A stretch of DNA of 6,261 nucleotides from Burkholderiales bacterium (GTDB lineage Bacteria; Pseudomonadota; Gammaproteobacteria; Burkholderiales; Burkholderiaceae_D), in the NCBI GenBank assembly GCA_016197345.1, contig JACPVY010000047.1, positions 1 to 6,261 of the forward strand, in the 5' to 3' direction. Position numbers and translations under genes: made by a program. This document shows positions 2,229 to 3,200 of the stretch, one piece after another. The notes beneath the pieces are model-generated. The model had not been told where the DNA came from. It saw only the letters and a list, made by a program, of their open reading frames with translations, and searched no databases. The stretch's first letter is position 1. Every line of letters starts with the position of its first letter.

Positions 2229-3200
2229 TCAAACGATTATTTGCGTTTTTGCCGTGCGCGCTCGGCAATCCGCATCCGCAAGGCATTGAGCTTGATAAAG
2301 CCACCCGCATCTCGATTCGATAGCACGGTGAGCGCGCAACATGATGGCGCCGCCTGGGGTTTCATAGCAGCCACGGCTCTTCATGCCGACATAGCGGTTT
2401 TCCACTAAATCGAGCCGGCCAATGCCATGTTTACCACCAAGGCGATTGAGTTCGGTCAGCATTGCGGCTGGGCTAACGCGTTTGCCGTTGATGGCGACGA
2501 TATCGCCGCGTTCAAATTCCAAATCCACATATTCGGCGGCGTCCGGCGCTGCTTCTGGCGAGACCGTCCAACGCCACATCGATTCTTCGGCTTCGGCTTG
2601 TGGGTTTTCGAGATGGCGGCCTTCAAAGCTGATGTGCAACAAATTGGCATCCATCGAATACGGTGCGCCGCCGTTTTTGTGCTTCATGTCGATTTCAATG
2701 CCCGCGTCTTCGGCGTATTTCATCAATCGTTCGCGTGACAGCAAATCCCATTCACGCCACGGGGCGATGATTTTCACTTCAGGCATCAAAGCATAAGCGC
2801 CCAGTTCAAAGCGTACTTGATCATTGCCTTTGCCAGTCGCACCGTGCGAAATCGCATCCGCGCCGGTTTTGCGCGCGATTTCAATTAGGCGCTTAGCAAT
2901 CAATGGACGGGCAATCGAGGTGCCGAGCAAATATTCGCCTTCGTACACCGTGTTGGCACGGAACATAGGCATCACAAAGTCGCGTACAAATTCTTCGCGC
3001 ACGTCTTCGATGAAAATATTTTCTGGCTTGATGCCAAATTTCAGTGCTTTAGCGCGCGCTGGTTCCAGCTCTTCACCTTGGCCAAGATCAGCGGTGAAAG
3101 TCACCACTTCACAACTGTAATTGTCTTGCAGCCATTTCAAAATGACGGAAGTATCAAGGCCGCCCGAATAGGCGAGTACAACTTTTTTGATGTCTGACAT
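2229..3200 (-). CDS. argG: Argininosuccinate synthase, internal deletion and frameshifted C-terminus (likely non-functional)
   Basis: ArgG (EC 6.3.4.5) joins citrulline and aspartate using ATP to make argininosuccinate, the penultimate step of arginine synthesis, in the cytoplasm. The start MSDIKKVVLAYSGG is as in the ~405-residue bacterial type; ATG 3200 has only a weak GGGA site. Visible are the N-type ATP pyrophosphatase motif SGGLDTS (12-18), TADLGQGEE (37-44), HGATGKGNDQ (119-128), and GIGRLDLVENR (259-269). Homology is normal through RAHRAIES (289-296). Family members then continue with ~85-90 residues (ITLDRE... to ...AYNQA) that are absent. The frame instead reads 27 unrelated residues from RCGWLYQAQ and stops at 2229. 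The true C-terminal tail lies immediately downstream in another frame. The missing part belongs to the synthetase domain and the tail used in tetramer assembly, so activity is unlikely. It lies 48 bases behind the DUF2798 gene on the same strand and could be co-transcribed with it. A sequencing or assembly error is the main alternative. Confidence 0.9.
   Translation of the reverse strand: MSDIKKVVLAYSGGLDTSVILKWLQDNYSCEVVTFTADLGQGEELEPARAKALKFGIKPENIFIEDVREEFVRDFVMPMFRANTVYEGEYLLGTSIARPLIAKRLIEIARKTGADAISHGATGKGNDQVRFELGAYALMPEVKIIAPWREWDLLSRERLMKYAEDAGIEIDMKHKNGGAPYSMDANLLHISFEGRHLENPQAEAEESMWRWTVSPEAAPDAAEYVDLEFERGDIVAINGKRVSPAAMLTELNRLGGKHGIGRLDLVENRYVGMKSRGCYETPGGAIMLRAHRAIESRCGWLYQAQCLADADCRARTAKTQIIV
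2237..2311 (-). pseudogene. argG: Displaced C-terminal tail of argG, out of frame
   Basis: Read on the minus strand from 2311, this encodes DAGGFIKLNALRMRIAER followed by ARQKRK and TAA at 2237-2239. This is the usual end of bacterial ArgG (family members read YNQADAGGFIKLNALRMRI). It follows directly on RAHRAIES in the DNA but in a different frame. The upstream gene has therefore lost a block whose length is not a multiple of three, with the junction at about 2311-2316. Confidence 0.85.

Follow-up and report, generated by a model that had tools for sequence, protein, structure and literature searches.

Argininosuccinate synthase, the product of argG, is described by the family models NCBIfam NF001770 / TIGR00032 and by the Pfam domains PF00764 and PF20979. 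Compared with this family, the argG gene analysed here is typical over codons 1-296, with scores above the NCBIfam cut-offs, but as assembled it is short of 88.7 codons in the C-terminal domain. A second described system is also relevant: when local errors of assembly and gaps in scaffolds are left uncorrected, they spread incomplete or incorrect protein-coding genes into databases (PMC7111523). With such errors and unfilled gaps of metagenome-assembled genomes, as presented in the part of that source drawn on here, the present locus shares clean flanks, broken protein-coding genes and the occurrence of several cases per genome. It differs from them in that abutted gap edges of exactly the present kind are absent from that part of the description. 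Read support is the defining test of such errors.

The window (the whole stretch of DNA that was analysed, 6,261 nucleotides) is the entire contig C623 of the draft genome G000, which comprises 2,995,108 bases in 675 contigs, with a completeness of 68.17% and a contamination of 0.41%, and is presumably a metagenome or single-cell assembly. Among contigs C1-C30 of this draft, 22 are readable, each of at least 3,122 bases and with no N inside, and the other 8 of the 30 consist entirely of N, each being shorter than 2,850 bases. Contigs below 3 kb therefore appear to be masked. The reference for the size of the argG loss was G001, a single-contig chromosome of 6.1 Mb from the same genus. Since the order of argG, argF and an HDOD gene is the same in the window and in G001, the contig does not combine DNA of different organisms at argG-argF.

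The argG gene as assembled

The features of the window that bear on argG are as follows.

2182..2222, minus strand: strong hairpin directly after the argG stop, with a 12-pair stem (folding of a 71-nt stretch)
2229..2311, minus strand: out-of-frame extension of the fused open reading frame, 27 residues to a TGA (no family match here)
2237..2311, minus strand: C-terminal tail of argG in the other frame, 24 residues plus TAA (translation, alignment)
between 2312 and 2311, minus strand: junction, 266 nt absent, i.e., 88.7 codons (alignment to G001)
2313..3200, minus strand: argG codons 1-296, intact and conserved (profile matches and conserved columns)
4209..5111, minus strand: argF, ornithine carbamoyltransferase, intact (PRK00779 matched over 6-305 of 307)

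The fused open reading frame (2229-3200, minus strand) encodes 323 amino acids, the first 296 of which are those of a typical argininosuccinate synthase. Residues 2-296 are matched by NCBIfam PRK00509 over positions 2-291 of 401 (478.6 bits, cut-off 334), and the N-terminal HUP domain PF00764 is matched in full (1-162 of 162). The C-terminal domain PF20979 is matched over 1-116 of 219 only and is not complete in one frame. The last 27 residues of the fused frame gave no family match in the NCBIfam and Pfam profile searches. In a second frame, running from window position 2311 to 2237, the sequence reads DAGGFIKLNALRMRIAERARQKRK followed by TAA (2239-2237), which is the argG family's own C-terminus. 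Profiles and translation thus confirm the original prediction of a normal ArgG up to codon 296, followed by the family tail out of frame with its TAA at 2237. By sequence, the closest solved chain to the ArgG of the window is 4nzp_A.

Folding of the 71-nt stretch that holds the hairpin after the argG stop gives -30.5 kcal/mol (z -5.2). The hairpin has no T run and is absent from the list of terminator-like sites predicted for the window. It is a possible candidate for the 3' end of the argG mRNA.

The alignment to G001 breaks between window positions 2312 and 2311, in agreement with a junction originally placed at about 2311-2316, and the window is short by exactly 266 nt. The stretch that separates S296 from the D of the tail counts 89 residues in 86 of the 107 relatives; in the other 21 it counts 88. 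The number of 107 leaves out four open reading frames of odd length, one locus without an open reading frame (110 loci were read) and the window's own locus, L001. The earlier estimate of 85-90 lost codons, covering the block from ITLDRE to AYNQA, is therefore right in both size and extent. Outside the gap, all 146 columns of codons 1-296 that are invariant among the 107 relatives are retained, as are 45 of the 46 columns that reach at least 95% conservation. The frame is open throughout these codons and no further lesion was found in argG, so that, as had been noted, the rest of the gene is free of the decay expected of a pseudogene. Within the gap, 36 of the missing 89 columns are invariant among the 107 relatives, and because of this ArgG as assembled is predicted to be non-functional.

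A second argG, for which the original prediction had left room, was not found in G000, a draft that is 68% complete and whose contigs below 3 kb are apparently masked; one copy only was recovered. The missing block was likewise not found elsewhere in the readable part of G000, where only the known tail was matched. The same loss was not found in the same genus, of which the set examined contains two genomes, G000 and G001, the latter with a full-length argG.

Similar losses elsewhere in the draft genome

In 169 kb of G000, three more losses of the argG kind were found, in purB, in an acyl-CoA dehydrogenase gene and at the gspK-gspL border. The scan recorded places where the coding signal is lost and then resumes in a different frame that has no start codon, and covered 28 loci, 169,140 bases and 157 coding segments. 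The gspK-gspL and dehydrogenase cases are the outcome of a blind scan over contigs C1-C30, while the purB locus was by-catch, being a weak cross match in the argH search. A further survey of breaks, with the open frames of G001 as reference, was of low yield (9 pairs above the cut-offs).

In purB (L113:1110-2349, contig C133), 68 nt are missing near the 3' end and the tail lies in a different frame; two frames share the match to the family model, the first covering positions 29-383 of 456 and the second 406-455. Six relatives were searched, and measured against each of the five that aligned on both sides of the break the loss is 68 nt. In the acyl-CoA dehydrogenase gene (L156:129-1575, C30), the N-terminal domain is in one frame and the C-terminal domains are in another, with 347 nt missing from the middle of the gene relative to five of six relatives and 359 relative to the other. 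At the gspK-gspL border (L142:1556-3563, C16), gspK is matched up to position 259 of 307, after which gspL is matched from position 46 of 392. About 268 nt comprising the end of gspK and the start of gspL are missing here, a size taken relative to G001 only. The region is diverged and was matched at all in 4 of 6 genomes.

These three loci are the ones flagged by the scan among the 157 segments of G000. At the same cut-off, 1 of 255 segments was flagged in 400,000 bases of the control G001. The flag rates alone do not tell G000 from the control, and it is the alignments that carry the case. The shortness of its tail kept the argG break from being flagged as a frame break.

Two other loci were observed in G000. 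A metallo-beta-lactamase-fold protein (L145:9370-10104, C19) has a family match that begins at 127 of 196, and may be a further case, with an in-frame loss of the earlier part of the domain. An extracellular solute-binding protein (L151:2661-3998, C25) matches PF00496 to position 252 of 368 only; the remainder of PF00496 was not recognised downstream of the match.

Four or more losses that hit unrelated genes within 169 kb might be taken as the mark of genome-wide gene erosion, that is, of many clean internal deletions in a host-restricted or recently bottlenecked lineage, the argG loss being one of them. The joins, which have no long repeats, would be compatible with end joining. Decaying genomes, however, usually carry stop codons and small indels too. 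No break by an in-frame stop was found among the 157 coding segments scanned in G000, and each of the three flagged frame breaks examined is a loss of at least 68 nt. Moreover, for most of the conserved genes that were scanned the match to the model covers almost the whole length, argG keeps all its invariant columns outside the gap, and a broken purB would demand uptake of purines. Erosion is on these grounds an improbable cause. Equally doubtful is its fuller biological version, an Oxalobacteraceae-like genome pared by repeat-free end-joining deletions in argG, purB, the acyl-CoA dehydrogenase and type II secretion, with arginine and purines obtained from neighbours.

Origin of the argG join

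The 266-base loss in argG is most probably a local assembly error that brought the edges of an unsequenced gap directly together. Stretches without reads would have been bridged and their edges placed next to each other with no Ns between them, for example through faulty gap closure or through removal of the gap Ns; no read would span the argG join as assembled, and an intact argG would thereby have been made to look broken in the draft. Similar losses elsewhere in the same assembly, by which a local assembly error may be recognised, are present in purB, the acyl-CoA dehydrogenase and gspK-gspL. The fragmented state of the draft, the clean coding flanks, the N-free readable contigs and the lack of a long repeat at the joins checked are also in favour of an assembly error.

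With G001 as reference, no base is shared at the argG join, and 0-1 bases are shared at the purB join (4 references). At the dehydrogenase join 0-4 bases are shared; here 2 of 4 references leave the exact break uncertain by several bases. Collapse at a repeat or a k-mer was rejected, as judged on the reference sequence: there is no direct repeat of k-mer length at the edges, and with 0 shared bases in argG and 0-1 in purB such a collapse need not be invoked. The original prediction had named an assembly collapse as the main alternative to a deletion; an error of assembly is what the similar losses in G000 point to, but the collapse of a repeat is not. The losses measure between 68 and 347 bases, and read pairs from short inserts are able to span gaps of that size. 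A de Bruijn assembler normally needs a read or a gap-closing step to produce an overlap-free join. Such a join also fits a real end-joining deletion.

A single recent and real deletion of 266 bp in argG, making the strain an arginine auxotroph, was the original prediction; the losses in the other genes would then be assembly errors. The exact, frame-shifting loss, its clean flanks and the failure to find a second argG agree with it, and truncated ArgG proteins do occur in databases, though with scattered ends. It demands a separate cause for argG, however, although the same pattern recurs in the assembly, in purB, the dehydrogenase and gspK-gspL. The other arginine genes tested are also intact: the family models are matched almost end to end by argF of the window and by argH, argB and argJ, the presence of argH having been one of the points to be checked. 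A deletion of this kind is accordingly not favoured, and is considered quite unlikely.

It may also be supposed that codon 296 is a deletion hot spot common to the relatives, since two ArgG proteins among the best 120 matches, P0056 and P0113, end at codons 295-298. In a set of 120 truncated ArgG proteins, however, the ends of homology are scattered from the 160s to the 320s, with only one at 296, and the matches listed in the family search all span residue 1 or 2 to 404 or 405. The hot spot was therefore rejected and has next to no probability. P0056 is an ArgG entry of 315 amino acids, whose tail is presumably the translation of a common sequencing adapter.

Surroundings of argG and implications

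The original prediction placed an intact argF just upstream of argG. The gene is indeed intact, but it lies about 1 kb upstream, separated from argG by two genes (window 3249-4185), one for a DUF2798 protein and one of the glyoxalase family. In this the window is unlike most relatives, as the distance between argF and argG is at most 300 bp in 93 of the 107 relatives' loci with both genes.

Elsewhere in the window, an orphan open reading frame at 384-1085 on the plus strand shows a weak DUF6678 match. Its coding signal stops at about position 968, where there is perhaps a second break; a database search for homologues returned the window's own protein only. Two inverted-repeat elements of about 150-170 bp, at 1948-2117 and 3632-3781, resemble small mobile repeats; their arms measure 39 nt (82%) and 15 nt (93%).

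Draft genomes often serve as the basis for predicting auxotrophies and cross-feeding. Should the argG join be an assembly error, G000 would be mistaken for the genome of an organism auxotrophic for arginine and purines, and further genes in it would likely be affected as well. A quick look for similar breaks elsewhere in the assembly protects against such mistakes at little cost. With the join explained as an assembly error, the argG gap is ordinary as biology and serves as a caution against inferring arginine auxotrophy from G000: the organism would have a full-length argG and would make arginine.
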